Origin: a virus
Reading direction: 5' to 3' (one strand)
Virus record (IMG/VR): IMGVR_UViG_3300029267_001447
Span: 1 to 36,857 of that record
Length of the DNA stretch: 36,857 nt
The position numbers and the translations under genes are program-made. The first letter of the stretch is position 1. Each line of letters starts with the position of its first letter. The notes under the pieces were generated by a model. It ran no database searches, had not been told where the DNA came from, and saw only the letters and a program-made list of their open reading frames with translations. Shown in pieces: positions 8,921 to 36,830 of the stretch.

Positions 8921-9631
8921 ATGCCTGACACGCGCACACTCGCCGAGATCCGCACCGATGCCCGCCGATACGCGGACATGGAGAACTCGGCCTATGCATC
9001 CGACGACGAGGTCACGCGCCTGGTCAACCTGGGCATTCGCGCCCTGTGGATGCTGCACGCGCAGTTGGACATCGACCGCCCCGTGCTTCGCACGGAGATC
9101 TCCACGACGACGGGCACCCGGGAGTACACGCTCCCGTCTGACTTTGTCGCCGTCCGTCTCGTGGAGGTCCTGCAGTCTTCTGGTAGCGAGGACGCGTACC
9201 CGATCCGGGCATACAATCTCTCGGAGGGGCACACGTCGAACACAGGGCTGTTCGGCTCGGCCTTCGCCGACGGGGAGCACCTTCGCTATGCGATCTTCGG
9301 CCAGGGCATGGACGGGTCCGACACCCGGATCCGCTTCGACCCGGACCCTCAGGGTCGGGTGTTCCGCTTCTGGTACCTGGCCAACCCCGGCACCCTCACC
9401 GCCGACGGCGACACGTTTGACGGCGTCGTTGGCTGGGACGACTGGGTGGCGCTTTGGGCCGCCGAGCAACTCATGGCCAAGGAGGAGTCGGACCCGTCCG
9501 CGCTCATCCGGCGCCGGAAGGAGCTCGAGGCCGGGATGACACACATTGCAGGGTCTCGCGACGTGGGCAGCGCTCACCGTGTCGCCAAAACCCGCGGCCG
9601 TCGACGACGGCGAGGACTTCGGGCGCGCTGA
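8921..9631 (+). CDS. head-tail adaptor (phage adaptor / gp11-like) protein
   Basis: A 236-residue protein matching the common phage adaptor pattern: an N-terminal helical bundle beginning TLAEIRTDARRYADMEN, with DEVTRLVNLGIRALWMLH, then beta-rich TGTREYTLPSDFVAVRLVEV, and a C-terminal helical part with DGDTFDGVVGWDDWVALWAAEQL followed by KEESDPSALIRRRKELEAG. These proteins form the ring joining the portal to the short tail. The very basic C-terminus (TRGRRRRRGLRAR) is probably unstructured. GGGGTGG lies a few bases before the ATG. Confidence 0.8.
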   Translation: MPDTRTLAEIRTDARRYADMENSAYASDDEVTRLVNLGIRALWMLHAQLDIDRPVLRTEISTTTGTREYTLPSDFVAVRLVEVLQSSGSEDAYPIRAYNLSEGHTSNTGLFGSAFADGEHLRYAIFGQGMDGSDTRIRFDPDPQGRVFRFWYLANPGTLTADGDTFDGVVGWDDWVALWAAEQLMAKEESDPSALIRRRKELEAGMTHIAGSRDVGSAHRVAKTRGRRRRRGLRAR

Positions 9632-10677: not shown

Positions 10678-11247
10678 ATGAGCGCCCTGTCCCAGCTGCA
10701 GAATGCCCGAGGCTTTCGCACGGGTCGGGGCGGCCTGTCCGAAGCAGAGCGACAGCTCGAGGCGGAAAGCATCGAGCGGGACCGCCAGCTTCGTGCGGCC
10801 ATCCTGGAGCTTGCGAGCGAGGCTGGCGTCACGATTGGCGGCGGGTCGAGCTCGAGCGGCAACGGGCGCGTGGTCGCGTTCCTGTCGTTCTGCGAGCGCT
10901 CGAGCGGCACCGGGTTTTACGTTCCCTGGGGCACCCAGCAGGAGGCCACCGTGGGCGGCCTGGACGAAGAGTGTTTGCTGTTCCCGCCGTTCGCGTCCTG
11001 CCGCATCACCACGGTGCAGGTCATGTTCGAGACCGCGGGAGGCTCAACCGATGTCGGGGTCCGCGACGACGCCGAGTCTGACGAGATCACCCCGGTCAAC
11101 GCTGGGGTGATCGGAGCCGGTTCGATGGTCGAGGTCACGCTGGACTACGACTGGACCGACGGAAACCCGAAGTGTATCTACATCAACCCGACGACCGACC
11201 CGGACTCAGTCCGAGTGCAGGTGTACGTGGAGGAGGTGGCGTCGTGA
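10678..11247 (+). CDS. hypothetical virion-associated protein
   Basis: A 189-residue protein one base after the previous stop. Residues 18-50 form a charged helix (LSEAERQLEAESIERDRQLR); a Gly/Ser linker (IGGGSSSSGNG) follows, and then a beta-rich domain of about 125 residues. A helix, linker and beta-domain design is common in fibre or decoration proteins. It is the last plus-strand gene before the antisense pair, and its stop is five bases from the converging minus-strand stop, leaving no room for a terminator. Confidence 0.6.
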   Translation: MSALSQLQNARGFRTGRGGLSEAERQLEAESIERDRQLRAAILELASEAGVTIGGGSSSSGNGRVVAFLSFCERSSGTGFYVPWGTQQEATVGGLDEECLLFPPFASCRITTVQVMFETAGGSTDVGVRDDAESDEITPVNAGVIGAGSMVEVTLDYDWTDGNPKCIYINPTTDPDSVRVQVYVEEVAS

Positions 11248-24152: not shown

Positions 24153-24225
24153 GCATCTTGACCTCTACGGGGTTCGTACCCCCGGAGAAGCAAGATGACG
24201 AAACGCTACACAGACGCAGCTCGAA

Positions 24226-24289
24226 TGGCGGGGCGGACGGGGCTCGAACCCGCGACCTCCGGCGTGACAGGCCGGCGTTATAACCAACT
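24226..24289 (-). other. attP-like site: 3' part of a tRNA-Asp gene
   Basis: Read on the minus strand this stretch matches the 3' three quarters of a bacterial tRNA-Asp: D-loop GTTGGTTA, anticodon stem-loop CCGGC-CTGTCAC-GCCGG with anticodon GTC (24266-24268), T arm GCGGG-TTCGAGC-CCCGT, 3' acceptor strand CCGCCCC, discriminator G and an encoded CCA. The 5' side is not tRNA-like: the D stem cannot pair and the 5' acceptor strand matches only 5 of 7. This is the usual structure of a phage attP that rebuilds the 3' end of a host tRNA gene on integration, and it lies just upstream of the integrase. A functional tRNA is unlikely. If the window is from an integrated prophage, an att junction elsewhere would be expected. 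Confidence 0.75.
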
Positions 24290-24392
24290 TTCACACGGCC
24301 TCGTAGGCCTCCATAACGGCCATTATAGCGCCGCGTCCCAACCCCGGCCGAAGTGGTCGGTGTTCGCCTCTCGCGCACGCGATGAACGCGAT

Positions 24393-25499
24393 ATGTCCGG
24401 GTCTGAGGACACTTTTGGCGGGGGCGAATCTACCCCTGGACAAGCCGCTCGCGATCGGTCAGATCGATTGGACAACCGAAGAGCGCAGACGGTCAGGGAC
24501 TCCGCAAGGGCCCTACAAGCCAGCCACATCGAGCTGGGGGACGCAGGCCAAATGCACCTCTTCCCTCAGACCACTGTCACCGTGCTGGTGAGCGGATTCT
24601 TGCGCGACTTCTCCGCGCAGGTTGACGCTGGCGAGCGCTCACGCCGTACCGCGGTTGCCTACGAGAAGGCGATCCGCTTCTTCCTGATGCGGTTCTTCGC
24701 TGGGCGAAACCCGGCGGAGATTACGACCAAGGAGGTCGCCCAGGCGTTCGCCACGGTGACCGACGAGCACGGGCCTGCGCTGGGCAACCAGGGTCTGCAG
24801 GTCTGCTCGATGGTGTTCGACTGGGGCGTCCGCAACGGCCTGGTGGCAGAGGGCACGAACCCCGCCCGGCTCGTCCGCCGGAACCCGGCGCGTAACCGAC
24901 GCGTCGCGCTGACGGTCGACCAGTCGCAGGAAGTGACGAACCTGTGCTGCCAGGCGTTCCTGGAGCCCGAAGGCTCGCGGGTCCTGTCTCCAGTGCTGGG
25001 CGCCTACTTCCTGGTTGTGCTCGGGTTGGGCATCCGGCGCAGCGAGGGGACGCACCTGCAACTGCCCGAGTGGGACCCGGTCCGCCGCGAGGTGACGATC
25101 ACCCGGCACAAGACGGTGCGCAAGGTCGGGCCGAAGGTGCTCCCGGCCAACGACTTCGTTGCGGCGACGCTCGATGAGGTGGTGCGTCGCGCGTGGCACC
25201 CGGTCTGGTTCTTCCCTTCGAAGCGCAGCCGTCGTGGGCACATTGAAGACCCGGGCAAGGCGTGGGCGCGTGTGCGGAAGACGTGCGGGCTCCCTGACGG
25301 CGTCCGCATCCACGACCTGCGGCACACGTTCGCCGCGGCTGTGTACGCAGCGACGAAGGACCTGAAGGCCGTACAGCGGCTGCTCGGGCACTCGTCGATC
25401 GCGACCTCGAGCATGTACGCCGGAACGCTGCCCGCGCGGCATCACCAAGACGACTCGCAGCGTGCGGTCGAGTTCATGCTCGGGGGTCGCGGTGGGTGA
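24393..25499 (+). CDS. int: tyrosine-family site-specific integrase
   Basis: From ATG 24393 the protein has 368 residues; ATG 24552 would give 315. An N-terminal SAM-like core-binding domain covers about 70-160. The catalytic domain has all expected residues: R215 in LGIRRSEG, K240 in TRHKTVRK, the HDLRH box (H307, R310), H333 in LLGHSS and the nucleophile Y342 in SSMYAG. It joins attP and attB by recombination. The open frame reaches up to 24195 but there it translates the tRNA fragment, so those residues are not protein. The start is uncertain because no strong ribosome-binding site precedes either ATG. The attP-like tRNA-Asp fragment lies directly upstream. Confidence 0.92.
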   Translation: MSGSEDTFGGGESTPGQAARDRSDRLDNRRAQTVRDSARALQASHIELGDAGQMHLFPQTTVTVLVSGFLRDFSAQVDAGERSRRTAVAYEKAIRFFLMRFFAGRNPAEITTKEVAQAFATVTDEHGPALGNQGLQVCSMVFDWGVRNGLVAEGTNPARLVRRNPARNRRVALTVDQSQEVTNLCCQAFLEPEGSRVLSPVLGAYFLVVLGLGIRRSEGTHLQLPEWDPVRREVTITRHKTVRKVGPKVLPANDFVAATLDEVVRRAWHPVWFFPSKRSRRGHIEDPGKAWARVRKTCGLPDGVRIHDLRHTFAAAVYAATKDLKAVQRLLGHSSIATSSMYAGTLPARHHQDDSQRAVEFMLGGRGG

Positions 25500-25757: not shown

Positions 25758-26011
25758 GTCCCGAAGCTGTAGATGAGATGATCGAGCAACTCTCCATCAT
25801 TCGGGAGAAGGGGCCCGCCGCCGCGGCAGTGGTCATCATCACCCCGAAGCACGGGCAAATCTCGATCACGAACCCGGGGACGACGACCCCGGCTCACCTG
25901 ATTAACGCGCTCGCCAGCACCATTGCCAGCGTTGCCCAGTCTCACGGACTCGACGAGTACGAGGTCATGGGAGATGTGGCGCGTGTTCTGAATGAGGGGT
26001 TTTTCGGATGA
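25754..26011 (+). CDS. small hypothetical protein (85 aa)
   Basis: It has helix (SPEAVDEMIEQLSIIREKG), then a beta hairpin-like region (AAAVVIITPKHGQISITNPG), then helices (LINALASTIASVAQSHGL; DVARVLNEGFFG). ATGA overlaps occur at both ends. It lies immediately upstream of the Gp157-like and ERF genes, so it may take part in recombination or early control, but no motif shows it. Confidence 0.55.
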   Translation: MSPEAVDEMIEQLSIIREKGPAAAAVVIITPKHGQISITNPGTTTPAHLINALASTIASVAQSHGLDEYEVMGDVARVLNEGFFG

Positions 26012-26565
26012 GCGACGCGAAGCAGGCCAAGCACCTCGACTGGCGCATTCACAGCCTCAACCGGGAGATGATGGCGTTGCTCGAGGAATCGAGCGGCGAG
26101 TTCACCCCAGAGGTGGAGGCGCTTGAGACTCGCATCGCGGAGAAGGCCGAGGCCCTCGGGGAGCTCGGCGCAGCGATGAAGGTGCACGCGAAGCAGATGC
26201 AGGAAGTCGTGGCGGCGGAGTCCAAGCGGCTCAAGGAATCGCGGGACTACTACCGGCGCGTCGAAGGCGTTGCCGAGCGGTTCTGCCGTATTGCAGCGCG
26301 TGAGATGGGGGTCAGCAAGTACGAGGTCGGCACGTTCCGCGTGTCGCTTCGGACACCCCCGGTCAAGCTCGTGGGCGGCCCCGAGGTCGACTCGGCCGGG
26401 TGGGCCGATGGCTCCGAGGAGAACGTCTGGTTGGTCGAGAACGGGTGGGGCCGGTTCGGTGTCCGGCCCGACCGCAAGGCCATCCTGGCCGAAGTGAAGA
26501 AGGGCTCCGAAGTGCTCGACTACGCCGCGGAGCGACCCGCGGAGAAGACGGTTGTGGTGAAGTGA
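26008..26565 (+). CDS. Siphovirus Gp157-like protein
   Basis: A 185-residue protein with the Gp157 layout: long N-terminal coiled coil (about 10-95, with EALETRIAEKAEALGELGAA and AAESKRLKESRDYY), then the segment MGVSKYEVGTFRVSLRTPP, where family members carry a K-x-x-T-x-x-F-x-x-x-x-R pattern, and a C-terminal part with PDRKAILAEVKKGSEV. The family (first described in Streptococcus thermophilus phage Sfi21) usually lies beside ssDNA-annealing proteins such as ERF, as here. Its biochemical role is uncertain. ATGA/GTGA overlaps couple it to both neighbours. Confidence 0.75.
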   Translation: MSDAKQAKHLDWRIHSLNREMMALLEESSGEFTPEVEALETRIAEKAEALGELGAAMKVHAKQMQEVVAAESKRLKESRDYYRRVEGVAERFCRIAAREMGVSKYEVGTFRVSLRTPPVKLVGGPEVDSAGWADGSEENVWLVENGWGRFGVRPDRKAILAEVKKGSEVLDYAAERPAEKTVVVK

Positions 26566-27317: not shown

Positions 27318-27895
27318 ACCTCAAGGAGAGCGACCGCTACCTCACCCCCGGATGGATCTTCGACGCCGAGGAGGAGTATTTCCCCAGGGGCGCGGCGGAC
27401 CTTGACCCGTTCTGGGACCCCGAGGGGCCGGATAAAACGTATGACACCTGGGACATTCGGAAGGAGCAGGATGCATACGCGCTCCATGCCCCCGACTTCG
27501 GGCACGACAGCGCTCACGTCAACGGGCCATACAGCGCCGACCATCCTGCACGCACGGCAAGGCTTCTCTACGACTGGCACCGGCGCATGACCGGATTCGA
27601 GTCGGTCAACGTCTGCATCGCTGCCGTTGGGTCGGAGTATTGGCGCGAGTACATCTGGCCGCTCCACCGGATGCGCCGCACGGGCGGGCTGGTGATCGGC
27701 TGGGCGGGGCGCCTCGGGTTTGAGGCTGCCGTGGACATCCCGGGCAAGGACGGCACCATTCGCTGCAAGAAGGGCGTCACGCAGTCGGGCAACCGCTCGG
27801 ATATCGCCATCGTGGCGAGCCTCGACCGGCCCGACTTCTTCGCGCACCTGCTGCGCAAGCACTCGCCCAAGGCGATAGAGGTGACGGTCCTATGA
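27314..27895 (+). CDS. Dam-like phage DNA N6-adenine methyltransferase, atypical motif IV
   Basis: A 193-residue protein starting at GTG (GTGA overlap). It follows the phage Dam family (PF05869-like) plan: RYLTPGWIFDAEEEYF at the N-terminus, a D-x-F region (ADLDPFWDPE), then HVNGPYSADHPARTARLLYD and later GSEYWREYIWPL. The catalytic D/N-P-P-Y/F motif is altered to NGPY (second residue P to G). The enzyme would use SAM to methylate adenine, but the altered motif leaves activity uncertain. It may protect phage DNA from restriction or act as a decayed relative. Confidence 0.65.
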   Translation: MNLKESDRYLTPGWIFDAEEEYFPRGAADLDPFWDPEGPDKTYDTWDIRKEQDAYALHAPDFGHDSAHVNGPYSADHPARTARLLYDWHRRMTGFESVNVCIAAVGSEYWREYIWPLHRMRRTGGLVIGWAGRLGFEAAVDIPGKDGTIRCKKGVTQSGNRSDIAIVASLDRPDFFAHLLRKHSPKAIEVTVL

Positions 27896-28350
27896 TTGAG
27901 TTCGCATTCGACGTCAAGCCACACCACACGACCATCAACAAGGCGCGCCAGTGCCGGTGCGTCAAGCCGAAGCCCGGGCGTCTTCGATGGGCGGCGCAGC
28001 AGTACTCCCGCGAGGAGTACAAGGCGGCGAAAAGGCAGATGCGGGAGCAGGCCGACCTGCAACTGGAGTCGTCGCACCGCCGGTTCGACGATGACCCCTG
28101 CTACGCCGACGGCCCCGTGCATGTGGTCATCACCACACACGCCGAGCGTGTGCACCGTCAGGGCCCCGCCAACGGCCTCGCATTCATCGACGCCGACGCC
28201 ACGACGAAGTGTGTGCTCGATGCGCTGAGCGGGGTGGCCTACACGGACGACGCTCAGGTTCAGCGCGTCACCGCAGAGAAGACGACGGACGGTCCGGTCG
28301 GCATCCGCGTGCGTGTGTACCGACCGGAGGAGACGGAGAGCGAGAAATGA
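27892..28350 (+). CDS. rusA: RusA-like Holliday junction resolvase
   Basis: A 152-residue protein with the RusA core: AFIDADATTKCVLDALSG followed by VAYTDDAQV and a downstream lysine (TAEK). The acidic residues D100, D102 and D119/D120 match the catalytic aspartates known in RusA. The DADN motif of many members is DADA here. RusA enzymes cut recombination intermediates before packaging. It follows the ERF gene, with an ATGA overlap at both ends. Confidence 0.8.
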   Translation: MIEFAFDVKPHHTTINKARQCRCVKPKPGRLRWAAQQYSREEYKAAKRQMREQADLQLESSHRRFDDDPCYADGPVHVVITTHAERVHRQGPANGLAFIDADATTKCVLDALSGVAYTDDAQVQRVTAEKTTDGPVGIRVRVYRPEETESEK

Positions 28351-28598
28351 GCAACGAAGCAAAGAAACGGGGCCCGGAGCCCTACCGCATGGTCGAGCTG
28401 CTCGAGTGGCTCAACGCGCACATCGACGAAGACGGCGAGGTCGAGGTGCCGAGCATCCGCGCGCTGTCGGAGAAGACCGGCATCCCGGCCCGCTCGCTTG
28501 AGTGGTCGGTGAAGCGCCTGGGGGAGATGGGGAAGCTTCAGATGGACCGCCCCTCGCACTGGAGCGCTGGACCCGTAACGCTGAAGGTGACCGCGTGA
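28347..28598 (+). CDS. small winged-helix-like DNA-binding protein
   Basis: An 83-residue protein with a pattern of a winged helix-turn-helix: MVELLEWLNAHIDEDGEVEV, then PSIRALSEKTGI (turn) and PARSLEWSVKRLGEMGKLQM (recognition helix and wing). It could be a small regulator or an accessory replication protein, as it lies a few hundred bases upstream of the initiator gene. It overlaps neighbours by ATGA and GTGA. The fold is inferred. Confidence 0.55.
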   Translation: MSNEAKKRGPEPYRMVELLEWLNAHIDEDGEVEVPSIRALSEKTGIPARSLEWSVKRLGEMGKLQMDRPSHWSAGPVTLKVTA

Positions 28599-28789: not shown

Positions 28790-29013
28790 TGGACTGGACG
28801 GCGACCTTGCTCATCGGACTGGTAGCCATTGCTGTGAATACGGTTGGGGTGGTCATGGCAGAACGCGCCCGAAGGCATCGGCACGAGATGGCCATACTGA
28901 GGCTCCACCGCGATCACGCGCGGGAGATGTGCGAGGGGTACCGCGACAGTTGGGCGAAGCTGACGAGAAACCCTCCACACGTTCTTTCGTGGGAGGAGGG
29001 CTCCGATGGCTGA
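28789..29013 (+). CDS. small membrane protein (74 aa)
   Basis: GTG start overlapping the preceding TAG. An N-terminal hydrophobic span (WTATLLIGLVAIAVNTVGVV) is followed by a basic-histidine segment (AERARRHRHEMAILRLHRDH) and a soluble tail. It is a type of one-span early phage protein whose function cannot be assigned. Its last codons hold the strong GGGAGGAGGG sequence at 28991-29000 that serves the initiator gene start at 29006. Confidence 0.55.
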   Translation: MDWTATLLIGLVAIAVNTVGVVMAERARRHRHEMAILRLHRDHAREMCEGYRDSWAKLTRNPPHVLSWEEGSDG

Positions 29014-30025
29014 GTGCCCCTGGGAAGCCCTCCGCGACCCCACGCTCCCCGACGGAGCCAAGACCGTCCTGACGGCGCTGTGGCGCCGTGCGGGCGCCTC
29101 TGGGCGCTTCGTATGGCCGAGCCCCGAAACGCTCGCCACGGACTGCGGCATGAAGCCCAGGACGCTGCGAAAGCACCTTGCAACGCTTCGCGATCGCGAG
29201 TGGGTGTCGCGCTCGACGGCTGCCGATGGCCGGCGAGGCTGGACGCTGTGCGACCCGCCCGGGGTTGCTGTGCACACCGCCGACGAGCCCGATTCCGAGC
29301 ACGAGCGGCACGAAGATGCCGGCACGAGCGTGCCAAGCACCGGCAAGAACGTGCCGAATGAGCGGCAAGAACGTGCCGAAGACTCAGACGTGCCGGCACG
29401 TCCGTGCCAAGAAAACGGCACGAGCGTGCCGCCCCTACTCTATAGGAACCAACGACATGAACCGACGGTGGTAAGGGGCGCGGAATCGCCACCACCGGCT
29501 CGCTCTCTCGGGGTCAACGCGTGGCGCTCTGAGTTCGTGTTCGCCTGGCGCGGGCAGTTCGACGCCGACGCTCGCGGCTGCCGAATCTCCGACCCGACCA
29601 GTGGCGCTCACCGGCTCGTGGAGCTCCAGCGCATGCTGGACGAGCACGGCGGCGACGTTGTTCGCGACGTTCTGCTTCACGCCGCCGAGCGTGTTGTCCG
29701 GCACCACGAGACCAACGGGCAGCACGGGCTCCACCCGAGGATGCTCGCGGTCACGTTCCGAGCCGACAAACCGCAGGCATTCGACGCTCTGCTGGACGCG
29801 TGGCAGGCCGACACGAAGCGCAAGCGCCACACGGGCAAGGCTCCCGTGGCCCCCGCCGAGCTTGACGGCGTGTCGCTCACGGACGAGGAACAGCGGATGT
29901 GGGTCCTGACCGACGGCGGCGACGCGGAGCGCCAGGCGGCGATTCGGGGGCACCGCGAAGTGCAGGAGGCCCGGGCCCTCGTGGCCCGCAGCGCCATCGG
30001 TGACCTGCTCGGGGGTGCGGCGTGA
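29006..30025 (+). CDS. lambda O-like replication initiator with in-gene origin
   Basis: A 339-residue protein. Residues 1-85 form a winged helix-turn-helix (VWPSPETLATDCGMKPRTLR and HLATLRDREWVSRS), as in HTH-type phage replication initiators. Residues about 95-165 are a polar linker, and 165-339 a helical C-terminal domain (RLVELQRMLDEHGGDVVRDV). The linker-coding DNA holds the iterons at 29307-29430. The order HTH, linker with iterons, then interaction domain is the organisation of lambda O, whose N-terminal domain binds iterons in its own gene. No helicase loader is recognised next to it. The start has the strong GGGAGGAGGG five bases upstream. Confidence 0.7.
   Translation: MAECPWEALRDPTLPDGAKTVLTALWRRAGASGRFVWPSPETLATDCGMKPRTLRKHLATLRDREWVSRSTAADGRRGWTLCDPPGVAVHTADEPDSEHERHEDAGTSVPSTGKNVPNERQERAEDSDVPARPCQENGTSVPPLLYRNQRHEPTVVRGAESPPPARSLGVNAWRSEFVFAWRGQFDADARGCRISDPTSGAHRLVELQRMLDEHGGDVVRDVLLHAAERVVRHHETNGQHGLHPRMLAVTFRADKPQAFDALLDAWQADTKRKRHTGKAPVAPAELDGVSLTDEEQRMWVLTDGGDAERQAAIRGHREVQEARALVARSAIGDLLGGAA
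29307..29430 (+). other. iteron array, predicted replication origin
   Basis: Five or six 14-bp palindrome-like units: GGCACGAAGATGCC (29307), GGCACGAGCGTGCC (29321), GGCAAGAACGTGCC (29342 and 29364), GGCACGTCCGTGCC (29395) and GGCACGAGCGTGCC (29417), plus a half unit CGTGCC ending at 29394. Start-to-start distances are 14, 21, 22, 31 and 22 bp, so several are two helical turns apart. A somewhat AT-richer stretch (TACTCTATAGG, 29436-29446) follows. The units lie in the linker-coding part of the initiator gene. Origin function is inferred by analogy with lambda ori. Confidence 0.7.
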
Positions 30026-30627
30026 TTGCGGCGCTGTTCGTCCAGGCCGGTGGGGCCTACTTCGACCTCGAGGGCGTCGACCCCTGGCCGGAGTCGCGGG
30101 ACGCTCGGTCCTATCCCGGCCCGCATCCTGTGGTCGCGCACCCGCCCTGCTCTCGCTGGCGCCGCCTCGCGGGGCTAGTGGAGGCCCGCTGGGGCCACAA
30201 ACGAGGCGACGACGGGGGCTGCTTCGCGTCTGCTCTGGGCTCCGTGCGCAGATGGGGCGGCGTCCTGGAGCATCCCGCCTACTCAGACGCCTGGGCGGCT
30301 CATGGTCTCCTGCATCCGCCTACAGGTGGAGGCTGGGTAAATGCCGATTTCGTCGGCGGGTGGACCTGCTACGTGGAGCAACAACGCTACGGCCACGCGG
30401 CGAAAAAGGCTACGTGGCTCTACGCTCACGGGGTCGAACTCCCGGCGCTTCGTTGGGGCCACGTGCCGGGCCAGAAGGCGTCCGCGCTGGTGTCGTGGTG
30501 TGGCAACCGCGTTGCGTCCGGCGAGGACCGCCCGCGCCTTGGGAAGAAGGCGGCCAGCGCAACGCCGCCGGAGTTTCGAGCCGTGCTGCTGGAGATGGCG
30601 CGCTCGGTTGAGCGGAGGGCGGCCTGA
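30022..30627 (+). CDS. phage protein with HPPC / LEHP motifs (methyltransferase-like?)
   Basis: A 201-residue protein starting at GTG (GTGA overlap). It has three conserved-looking blocks: VVAHPPCSRWRRLAG (37-51), GGVLEHPAYSDAW (79-91) and EQQRYGHAAKKATWLYAHG (119-137). I recall this pattern from uncharacterised phage proteins. The P-P-C and E-x-P order resembles motifs IV and VI of C5-cytosine methyltransferases, but no SAM-binding motif I is visible, so the catalytic activity cannot be claimed. A nucleotide- or DNA-modifying enzyme is possible. Confidence 0.5.
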   Translation: MIAALFVQAGGAYFDLEGVDPWPESRDARSYPGPHPVVAHPPCSRWRRLAGLVEARWGHKRGDDGGCFASALGSVRRWGGVLEHPAYSDAWAAHGLLHPPTGGGWVNADFVGGWTCYVEQQRYGHAAKKATWLYAHGVELPALRWGHVPGQKASALVSWCGNRVASGEDRPRLGKKAASATPPEFRAVLLEMARSVERRAA

Positions 30628-31250: not shown

Positions 31251-31495
31251 AGAAACAACTACGAAGAAGCATCAGTCTGGCGCCGGGCAGGTTCGAGGAG
31301 CTGCAGTTGCTCGCGGGCAAGACCGGCCTTTCGAAGGCGGCTTGGCTCGAACAGAAGATCGGCGAAGCCGCCCGTGCGGAGGGGCTCGAGGTCGATCCTG
31401 TTGCCGCGCGAGAGCGGGCCAACGAGCGGTACACGACCATGCGAGAGCGGAAGCTGGCGGACGTCGAGCGGCGCAGGGTGGAGGCGTTCGGATGA
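31247..31495 (+). CDS. small RHH-like DNA-binding protein
   Basis: An 82-residue protein with a ribbon-helix-helix-like N-terminus: strand RRSISL, then helix PGRFEELQLLAGKTG and helix SKAAWLEQKIGEAAR, followed by a charged helical tail. It is the third RHH-like protein of the window and the only one in the early operon, which suggests a local regulator. ATGA overlaps at both ends. Confidence 0.55.
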   Translation: MKKQLRRSISLAPGRFEELQLLAGKTGLSKAAWLEQKIGEAARAEGLEVDPVAARERANERYTTMRERKLADVERRRVEAFG

Positions 31496-32214
31496 AGCGC
31501 CAGATTGTGGCCTTCTCAGGAGGCAAGGACTCTACGGCGCTAGCGTTGGAGATGGTGCGCCGGCGCGAGCCAATCCACGGACTTCTGGTTACGCCAACCG
31601 GAGACGAGTTGCCTGCCGTCTGGAAGCATTGGGATGCGGTCGCGGAGCACGTTGGCGCCCCTGTGATCAGGCCGAAAGCGCCATCGCTCGCGGAGGCGAT
31701 CGAGTCACAGAAGGCGCTGCCCAACTTCCGTATGCGGTGGTGTACACGCCTGATCAAGATCGCCCCGATGATCGCATGGGCCAAGACCGAAGGGCGCGGC
31801 GCCACTGTTTGCGTGGGCCTTCGCGCAGACGAGCCAGCAAGAACGGGCATCATCAGCGAGCACGTGCCAACACGGTTCCCGCTTCGTGAGTGGGGGATGG
31901 GGCTCGAAGATGTGATGAGGGTGATCGCCAAATCGCCGTTCAGCGTGCCCAAGCGAACCGATTGTGCCCGTTGCTACCATCAGCGGATCCACGAATGGTG
32001 GGACCTGTGGCACGAGCACCCCGACATCTTCGAGTCCGCCGTGCAGGACGAGCACCGAACGGGGCACACGTACAGAACGCCAGGCCGCGACACGTGGCCC
32101 GTCGGGCTCGCCGAGCTGCGAACCGCATTTGCTGACGGCCGCATACCAAAAAAGAGAGCCAATCTCGAGCTGTTCAGTGGGGAAGAGGAGATGTGTCGTG
32201 TCTGCTCGCTCTAG
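31492..32214 (+). CDS. PAPS reductase-like (adenine nucleotide alpha-hydrolase) protein
   Basis: A 240-residue protein with the PP-loop SGGKDST (9-15), a RWCTRLIKI block (82-90), GLRADEPARTG (109-119), and four late cysteines in two CxxC pairs (C158/C161 and C235/C238) plus C84. The PP-loop binds ATP or PAPS and activates sulphate or another nucleophile. Phage members of this family are common and their substrates unknown; DndC, of DNA phosphorothioation, is a distant cousin with a cysteine-bound Fe-S cluster. Cys positions here could hold a metal or Fe-S cluster. No Dnd-partner genes are seen. The start is the ATG overlapping the previous stop. Confidence 0.75.
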   Translation: MKRQIVAFSGGKDSTALALEMVRRREPIHGLLVTPTGDELPAVWKHWDAVAEHVGAPVIRPKAPSLAEAIESQKALPNFRMRWCTRLIKIAPMIAWAKTEGRGATVCVGLRADEPARTGIISEHVPTRFPLREWGMGLEDVMRVIAKSPFSVPKRTDCARCYHQRIHEWWDLWHEHPDIFESAVQDEHRTGHTYRTPGRDTWPVGLAELRTAFADGRIPKKRANLELFSGEEEMCRVCSL

Positions 32215-32653
32215 TCTGAAACGCAAGACCCCACTCCGCCGCACCGGCCGACTGAAGCGGGAGAACACCGAGAGGGCAGCGAAGCGGAGAGCGGAGGCGT
32301 TCGGGCCGCAGGCGGAGCTGTGCCGCCATGCGATGTGCGTGGCGTGCATGGCCTCATTCCGGGGCGATGTCACCGGGTCCCTCGCGCGCTTCGCCCGAAG
32401 CTGGAGGAAGTACGGCGGAGGGTTTGACTCCCTGCCGGTCAACGACCCCCACCACGTCCCCACTCGAGGAGCCGGAGGTGTGGACAAGGACACGGTCCCC
32501 CTCTGCCGCGAGCATCACCGCGAGTGGCACGACATCGGAGAGAAGTCCTTTGACGCGAAGTACGGAGTCCACCTCCGGGGTGTGGCGAAGGCGATACACG
32601 ACGAGTTGACGCAAAACGTTGCGCAAGGAATGGAGCAGGGTGACGATGACTGA
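32198..32653 (+). CDS. HNH-like nuclease (Ref-like)
   Basis: A 151-residue protein starting at GTG with AGAGGAG seven bases upstream; it overlaps the previous gene by 17 bases. A basic N-terminus (LKRKTPLRRTGRLKRE) precedes C42, C47 and C50, then the motif NDPHHVPTRGAGG (82-94) and VPLCREHHREWHDIG (100-114). The H-H...P-L-C-x-x-H-H...H pattern is that of the RecA-dependent nuclease Ref of phage P1 and related HNH proteins, which nick or cut recombining DNA. The palindromic element lies in its last codons (read QNVAQG). Confidence 0.75.
   Translation: MSARSSLKRKTPLRRTGRLKRENTERAAKRRAEAFGPQAELCRHAMCVACMASFRGDVTGSLARFARSWRKYGGGFDSLPVNDPHHVPTRGAGGVDKDTVPLCREHHREWHDIGEKSFDAKYGVHLRGVAKAIHDELTQNVAQGMEQGDDD
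32613..32629 (+). repeat. start-associated palindromic element, copy 8
   Basis: AAAACGTTGCGCAAGGA, one base short of the consensus end (followed by A rather than T). It lies at the end of the nuclease gene, 16 bases before ATG 32646 of the next gene. GGAG at 32632-32635, just after the element, is the better Shine-Dalgarno for that start. Confidence 0.8.
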
Positions 32654-32927
32654 GAAGATGAAGACGAAGCGGTGCACCAAGTGCACGCAAACGAAGCCCC
32701 TGTCGGAGTTCAGCATGAAGGCGAACGGGAGCGGGCGCCGGGACCAGTGCCGGGCGTGCACCTATACGGACTGGTCACGCTCGCAGGAGCGCTCACGGCT
32801 GGCCGACGCGAACAGGTCGACGCTTGACCAGCGGTGGCTTCGCGAGCTCGAAGCGAAGGCCGACGCCCGCACGCAGGCCGCGTTCGACCGGCTCCGCGCC
32901 GACCGTCTGGAGGTGGCGGGGGTATGA
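32646..32927 (+). CDS. small zinc-ribbon protein (93 aa)
   Basis: The product has two CxxC pairs: CTKCTQTKPLSEFSMKANG and then CRAC, the zinc-ribbon form found at the N-terminus of phage endonuclease VII-like proteins (C-x-x-C-G-x-x-K-P-L-S-E-F). Here the nuclease part is missing and a charged helical tail follows (RWLRELEAKADARTQAAFDR). It might be a truncated endonuclease or a stand-alone DNA-binding module. ATG 32646 overlaps the end of the nuclease gene by eight bases; the frame is open upstream to TTG at 32619. Confidence 0.6.
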   Translation: MTEKMKTKRCTKCTQTKPLSEFSMKANGSGRRDQCRACTYTDWSRSQERSRLADANRSTLDQRWLRELEAKADARTQAAFDRLRADRLEVAGV

Positions 32928-35989: not shown

Positions 35990-36132
35990 CCACACACATC
36001 ATCGGCAAGCCCCCCGCACCCAAACCCAATGGCGGGGAGGCATGGGCGATCTCGACGTTCCTCCACGGGATGCCCGCTCGCGTCCCCGTCGACATCCTCG
36101 CGGAGCGCGGCGTCAAAGTGAGGGCGTCATGA
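35986..36132 (+). CDS. very small hypothetical protein (48 aa)
   Basis: A GTG at 35986 overlaps the preceding stop (GTGA) and opens a 48-residue frame whose TGA (36130-36132) overlaps the next ATG (ATGA). It encodes MTTHIIGKPPAPKPNGGE, then a mixed part with a short helix (AISTFLHGMPARVPVDILAE). Coupling at both ends makes it likely to be translated. The function is unknown. Confidence 0.4.
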   Translation: MTTHIIGKPPAPKPNGGEAWAISTFLHGMPARVPVDILAERGVKVRAS

Positions 36133-36830
36133 AGGAGCGCCCAATCGCATTCACGGACGGGCTCGTCGACCTCGTGGTGGACGGATCGAAGACCCAGACC
36201 CGGCGCGCGCTCGGCCGGAAGTTCGTCGGGGACCGCTGGCGCCTCGAAAGGCTCGAGGGCGCCGTGGCCCACATGCGCCACCCTGAACACGGTCTCCACC
36301 GCGTCCGCTGCCCCTACGGCGGCCCCGGGGACACCCTCTGGATTCGCCAGGGCTGGAAAACCCCGGAGGCCTGGGACGGGTTCTCTCCGGTCGATCTTGT
36401 GGGCGTGTTCGATGGCGAGGGGGAGCGCGTCCCGATCATGCTGACGTCGAACGGGAGGAGGTTCGGAGACTGGGACCTTTCCCCAGGCATCGAGTCCTTC
36501 GAGTTCGCTCCGGATCAGGACCCGGGACGCGTGCGCGCTCCCATGCACCTACCCCACGCCCTGGCCGTCCACCGGGTCACGGTGGAGTCGCTTCGCGTGG
36601 AGCCGGTGACGTCGATCTCCGAGGCCGACGCGAAGGCGGAAGGCGTCGACGTGAGCGATTCGGACCTGGGCCTCCTTCAGACGATGGCCTACGCGGCGGG
36701 CGCAGCATTCGAGCGCCACACGTCCGCGTTCTTCTCACTGTGGGACGAGATCAACCGCCGCCGGGGGCTTGGGATAGACGCGAAGCCGTGGGTCTGGGTC
36801 GTCGAGATGTCAAACCCGCGGACCCGTTGA
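36129..36830 (+). CDS. phage ASCH-like protein
   Basis: A 233-residue protein with the layout of phage ASCH-fold proteins: RPIAFTDGLVDLVVDGSKTQ followed by TRR at the N-terminus, RCPYGGPGDTLWIRQGWKTP in the middle, and FFSLWDEINRRRGLGIDAKP followed by WVWVVEM at the C-terminus (W-D-x-I-N...PWVWV). ASCH domains are beta-barrels related to RNA-binding PUA domains; in phages the substrate is unknown. It is the last gene of the window, with a 27-base remainder after the stop that shows a weak hairpin (GGGGG-CAAT-CCTCC) and no T-run. Confidence 0.7.
   Translation: MKERPIAFTDGLVDLVVDGSKTQTRRALGRKFVGDRWRLERLEGAVAHMRHPEHGLHRVRCPYGGPGDTLWIRQGWKTPEAWDGFSPVDLVGVFDGEGERVPIMLTSNGRRFGDWDLSPGIESFEFAPDQDPGRVRAPMHLPHALAVHRVTVESLRVEPVTSISEADAKAEGVDVSDSDLGLLQTMAYAAGAAFERHTSAFFSLWDEINRRRGLGIDAKPWVWVVEMSNPRTR

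Follow-up and report, generated by a model that had tools for sequence, protein, structure and literature searches.

At positions 29307-29430 of the window (the whole 36,857-bp stretch of viral DNA analysed here), in the linker-coding part of a replication initiator gene, we found the 14-bp near-palindrome GGCAMGNNCGTGCC in six copies. We consider it highly probable that the phage carries a lambda-type replication origin inside its own initiator gene and that these repeats are the part of it to which the initiator binds (Table 1). The original prediction had placed five to six 14-bp near-palindromic repeats in the linker code of an HTH-like gene; the repeats proved to be real, with just five good copies among them. 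Spacings from start to start, which equal those from centre to centre, are 14, 21, 22, 31 and 22 bp for iterons 1-6, and the centres of iterons 2-6 are helically phased, lying at 0, 2.0, 4.1, 7.05 and 9.14 turns (10.5 bp per turn). Dyad symmetry extends over 8-12 of the 14 positions of the iterons.

Table 1. Features of the candidate origin and its surroundings, in window coordinates.
Feature	Position	Strand	Remarks
RusA-like resolvase	27892..28350	+	PF05866, E 2.1e-12; early gene block with initiator
Replication initiator gene, 339 aa	29006..30025	+	HTH_36; PHROG replication initiation/O-like families; from sequence
Winged-helix DNA-binding domain	29045..29206	+	Pfam match residues 14-67; predicted fold residues 1-82
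Iteron 1, degenerate, GGCACGAAGATGCC	29307..29320	+	2 mismatches to GGCAMGNNCGTGCC; abuts iteron 2; out of helical phase
Iteron 2, GGCACGAGCGTGCC	29321..29334	+	Exact match to GGCAMGNNCGTGCC
Iteron 3, GGCAAGAACGTGCC	29342..29355	+	Exact match to GGCAMGNNCGTGCC; codes GKNVP
Iteron 4, GGCAAGAACGTGCC	29364..29377	+	DNA identical to iteron 3, different frame; codes RQERA
Half-site GACGTGCC abutting iteron 5	29387..29394	+	Makes palindrome GACGTGCCGGCACGTC, 29387-29402
Iteron 5, GGCACGTCCGTGCC	29395..29408	+	Exact match to GGCAMGNNCGTGCC
Iteron 6, GGCACGAGCGTGCC	29417..29430	+	Exact match to GGCAMGNNCGTGCC
Candidate DNA unwinding element	29436..29475	+	Least stable 40-mer of the gene
Two GAACC copies, 13 bp apart (29446-29450, 29459-29463)	29446..29463	+	Weak instance of AACC array; different frames
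Initiator C-terminal region, presumed partner-binding part	29500..30022	+	Without family match

The repeats are under selection at the level of the DNA. Exact matches to GGCAMGNNCGTGCC occur nowhere in the 36,857-bp record except in the array, with five on the plus strand and three on the minus strand, and the iterons are spread over all three codon frames of the initiator gene. As the same 14-mer codes for GKNVP in one frame and for RQERA in another, it is the DNA on which selection acts. It is therefore hardly credible that the repeats reflect chance in DNA of high GC content, or a peptide repeated within a flexible linker. Peptides resembling GTSVP and GKNVP do recur, and the low pLDDT of the predicted model points to a linker that is probably disordered; however, the same DNA read in three frames yields unrelated peptides, and on this frame test we rejected the peptide-repeat explanation. 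Chance, for its part, would give 0.03 exact matches on the plus strand under a dinucleotide model against the five observed, and a repeat family equalling the observed one arose in none of 300 synonymous shuffles of the initiator gene (0/100 in a separate run).

Transcription operators, recognized by the winged-helix initiator itself or by the small wHTH product of 28347-28598, would also be compatible with such sites, as a repressor would likewise use a dyad-symmetric wHTH site and a second small HTH gene (a weak match) lies nearby. That the repeats are operators and not an origin is nonetheless unlikely, because they lie 300-425 bp inside the gene, no exact copy is found near the gene start or elsewhere in the record, and phased arrays beside a low-stability segment recur in genes of the initiator family. 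Iteron binding could autoregulate the initiator gene as a side effect. A partition or incompatibility site, and not a replication start, is very unlikely: centromeres and iteron arrays are alike in sequence, but the array sits within an initiator-family gene and adjoins a low-stability stretch, no ParA/ParB-like family was matched among the proteins scanned, and the presence of an integrase points to integration over plasmid lysogeny.

The gene that carries the array is preceded by a GGAGG-type ribosome-binding site at about 28992-28999. Its product matched Pfam family HTH_36 at the N-terminus (residues 14-67, E 1.3e-11), as well as the PHROG families phrog_270 (E 9.5e-11), phrog_1032 (E 2e-9) and phrog_391, annotated as 'O-like' (E 1.9e-6), with the PHROG profile matches confined to the N-terminal part. 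AlphaFold2 predicted a winged helix (HHHH-EE, mean pLDDT 78) for residues 1-89. Foldseek placed the initiator of Caulobacter phage Sansa and the putative replication protein O of phage Min27 among the best viral neighbours of this model, and its structural neighbours in the PDB were MarR-type and other winged helices, none of them with E <0.001. For the C-terminal region, a PDB sequence search with the initiator gave nothing informative, and the full-length AlphaFold2 model was of low confidence at the C-terminus and too poor to interpret. Neither a pattern scan of viral contigs nor tblastn against phages retrieved a close homologue of the initiator, and no viral contig was found to contain the iteron-pair DNA. 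One candidate relative from the genome_contigs search (L006) was rejected, its match of only 16 residues being judged due to chance.

Beyond the array, the lowest-GC 30-mer of the initiator gene begins at 29436, 6 bp past the last iteron, and the fraction of window positions at least as unstable as the 29436-29475 segment is 0.0014 (0.14%). GC skew, which had been proposed as a check for the replication start, gave no clear signal or switch at the array. DnaA boxes were present at chance level, with four matches, one of them exact, and no enrichment. From the arrangement of domain, iterons and low-stability segment we infer an active origin at which the initiator binds the iterons, the DNA melts and helicase is loaded, in the following form. 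The palindromic 14-bp iterons would be bound by the winged-helix domain, probably in dimeric form; the resulting complexes, being helically phased, would wrap the DNA; the segment at about 29436-29475 would melt; and host DnaB helicase would be brought in by the C-terminal domain of the initiator or by a partner. For an orphan phage initiator, the array provides a predicted target on the DNA and an origin that can be put to the test.

The proposed resemblance to lambda O and its origin is borne out for the architecture only, that is, for the matches to winged-helix initiator families, the dyad repeats about two helical turns apart in the linker code and the adjoining low-stability segment. The lambda origin lies within O, where dyad-symmetric iterons are bound by O dimers and an adjoining AT-rich tract opens (PMC5043065; PMC7466680). 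The window shares with lambda O and ori-lambda a winged-helix-type initiator, tandem dyad iterons spaced about 20-24 bp apart within the gene and an AT-rich stretch directly 3' of them (PMC7466680, PMC5043065); lambdoid relatives of ori-lambda include Stx phages with six iterons. In contrast to the 14-bp GGCAMGNNCGTGCC of the window, the lambda iterons are 18 bp long and start with ATCCCTCAAAAC, and the two sequences are unrelated. The window further differs from lambda in the C-terminal region of its initiator, in that no adjoining P-like loader was recognised, and in having two AACC copies past the iterons, which lambda lacks.

The window shares its winged-helix domain family with the initiators matching HTH_36 and PHROG 270 and 1032, such as those of Caulobacter phage Sansa, Arthrobacter phage Abidatro and Pseudomonas phage LPPA33. 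Most of the tested genes of this kind carry in-gene iterons past the winged helix, usually 22-23 bp apart, whereas their iteron sequences and C-terminal regions differ from those of the window. A weak N-terminal similarity links the window initiator to RepC of repABC plasmids (tblastn matches; PF03428 at 23.9 bits, below the cut-off of 24.4). The origin of RepC plasmids lies within the gene of the initiator and is accompanied by an A+T-rich region, whereas iterons are reported absent (PMC3155836); our repeat search of a RepC gene found no iterons. Unlike the repABC RepC origin, the window has iterons, and no repA or repB was seen in it.

The lambda O/ori-like layout was found in lambda O and in most of a survey of 49 initiator genes. 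The survey set comprised distant winged-helix initiators from named phages, viral contigs and actinobacterial genomes; it was not a random sample, its genes having been chosen by likeness to winged-helix initiators, and seven loci, namely the RepC comparator and others with weak or non-specific matches, were dropped from the final tally after inspection. Each gene was subjected to a blind repeat search and to synonymous shuffles, a repeat family being taken as significant when equalled in no more than 2/100 shuffles. As a positive control, the blind search found the four annotated iterons of lambda O, with spacings of 20, 24 and 23. A significant in-gene repeat family was detected in 34 of the 49 initiators, counting the window and lambda, and the repeats differed from gene to gene. 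These families mostly occupied two or three frames, and the iteron spacings in 18 tabulated genes clustered at 22-23 bp, some further ones lying around 31-33 and 45-46. Eight of the ten named phages fetched later gave no more than 1/40 shuffles (DelaGarza, one of these, gave 5/100 in a larger run). The remaining 15 genes lacked a significant repeat family, some of them having too few copies for the test. Most control genes of the window were likewise without a repeat family; 3 of 18 (8921-9631, 10678-11247 and 27892-28350) had three-copy families, equalled in 0 or 1 of 20 shuffles, so single weak cases in the survey should not be over-read. The three control-gene families lack a regular 22-bp pitch. 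To judge from the survey, nested origins specific to their own initiator would be widespread in winged-helix phage initiator genes and no special trait of lambdoid phages, and the reading-frame test would allow them to be recognised from sequence.

We then compared the identity of the winged helix with the best similarity of iteron 12-mers across 38 genes, which gave a Mantel r of 0.48 (0/2000 permutations), against 0.10 (maximum 0.20) for random non-iteron segments and 0.24 for segments upstream of the iterons. Shared ancestry accounts for part of this correlation, though not all of it, as judged from the upstream control. Since repeat similarity tracks the similarity of the winged-helix domain, the comparison indirectly supports this domain as the putative iteron binder. 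For the window iterons, the best matches (10/12) included Sansa and L063, two of the nearer relatives, yet unrelated genes scored equally, and the tracking is therefore weak for the window itself. A similar iteron core, resembling CCCCCGCAGAATCTG, was present in survey loci L070, L115, L119, L120 and L121, and also in L061 and L103, in initiators from Pseudomonas, Stenotrophomonas and Aeromonas phages and from an actinobacterial genome; winged-helix identity is low in some of these pairs.

A Walker A scan of the window revealed no helicase or loader, and no P-like family was matched among the proteins scanned, several window ORFs being without a family. Because lambda P is not an ATPase, a P-like loader could escape the Walker A scan, and a small non-ATPase analogue of lambda P may be encoded among the unnamed ORFs of the window. 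Unlike in the window, a DnaB-like helicase adjoins the initiator in Acinetobacter phage LZ35 (L117) and Caulobacter phage Sansa (L053), and an annotated helicase loader does so in Microbacterium phage DelaGarza (L113). The gene block of the window initiator includes an ERF-type annealing protein, RusA and small HTH genes, and RusA also lies directly 5' of the initiator in Arthrobacter phages Abidatro and RedFox. Directly 3' of the initiator, the gene at 30022-30627 belongs to phrog_12600 (E 1.3e-60), a family of unknown function that is common in viral contigs and present in microvirus records too; 37 loci neighbouring phrog_12600 were retrieved, and an HTH_36 match was found in only a few of them.

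In many relatives the last iteron is followed by GAACC[G/A]TC-like copies 11-13 bp apart, for example GAACCGTCCTTGAACCGTCCTTGAACCGTCC in Abidatro. We scored a gene as positive when the 100 nt past its last iteron held a pair of AACC spaced 10-17 bp. This rule picked out 27 of the 49 genes, or 21 of 41 once near-duplicates were removed; the motif had first been noticed in part of this survey set, and the counting interval was shifted for three genes in which the AACC array had itself come out as the best repeat family. As background, the same rule picked out 8 of 422 stretches of 100 nt taken elsewhere in these genes, and when applied to the complement GGTT it picked out 0 of 49. The copies occupied more than one frame in 23 of the 27 genes, and AACC density was maximal 0-50 nt past the last iteron. 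Ten later phages, fetched once the motif had been noticed, contained 26 AACC compared with 2 GGTT. Synonymous shuffles retained many AACC (52.6 of 85 in the first set, and 10.8 of the 26 in the ten later phages), so that protein constraint contributes to the signal. The two copies of the window were not significant by themselves (synonymous-shuffle fraction 0.35). AACC-centred, strand-specific repeats with a pitch of around 11-13 bp were seen past the last iteron in the window and in L047, L071, L107, L108, L115, L118, L119 and L120, the phages concerned having diverse hosts.

On this basis we put forward, tentatively and at somewhat less than even probability, that many winged-helix phage initiator genes have a bipartite nested origin. 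Its first part would be the phage-specific iterons, and its second a strand-specific, not previously described array of GAACCRTC-like copies (around 11-13 bp pitch), which would be retained in phages of Proteobacteria, Actinobacteria, cyanobacteria and Thermus even where the iterons and the C-terminal regions have diverged. A limited literature search on the AACC motif with phage origins returned nothing relevant, which is no proof that the array is undescribed. At a guess, the array could act as a shared element for melting or for helicase loading. If real, it would be an element common to very divergent phage origins and would offer a handle on helicase loading where no lambda P-like loader is recognised.

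Elsewhere in the window, a whole tRNA-Asp(gtc) gene (24226-24302, minus strand) lies against the 5' part of the integrase ORF (24195-25499, plus strand), and this tRNA gene is possibly the attachment site. Relatives of the major capsid protein were found in distant contigs only, and the head genes are consistent with the label of 'podovirus' given to this phage. Other window genes encode a PAPS-reductase-like protein (31489-32214), a Lar-like/endonuclease VII-like protein (32619-32927), a weak match to Mu Gam (26008-26565) and a member of phrog_874 (36123-36830).
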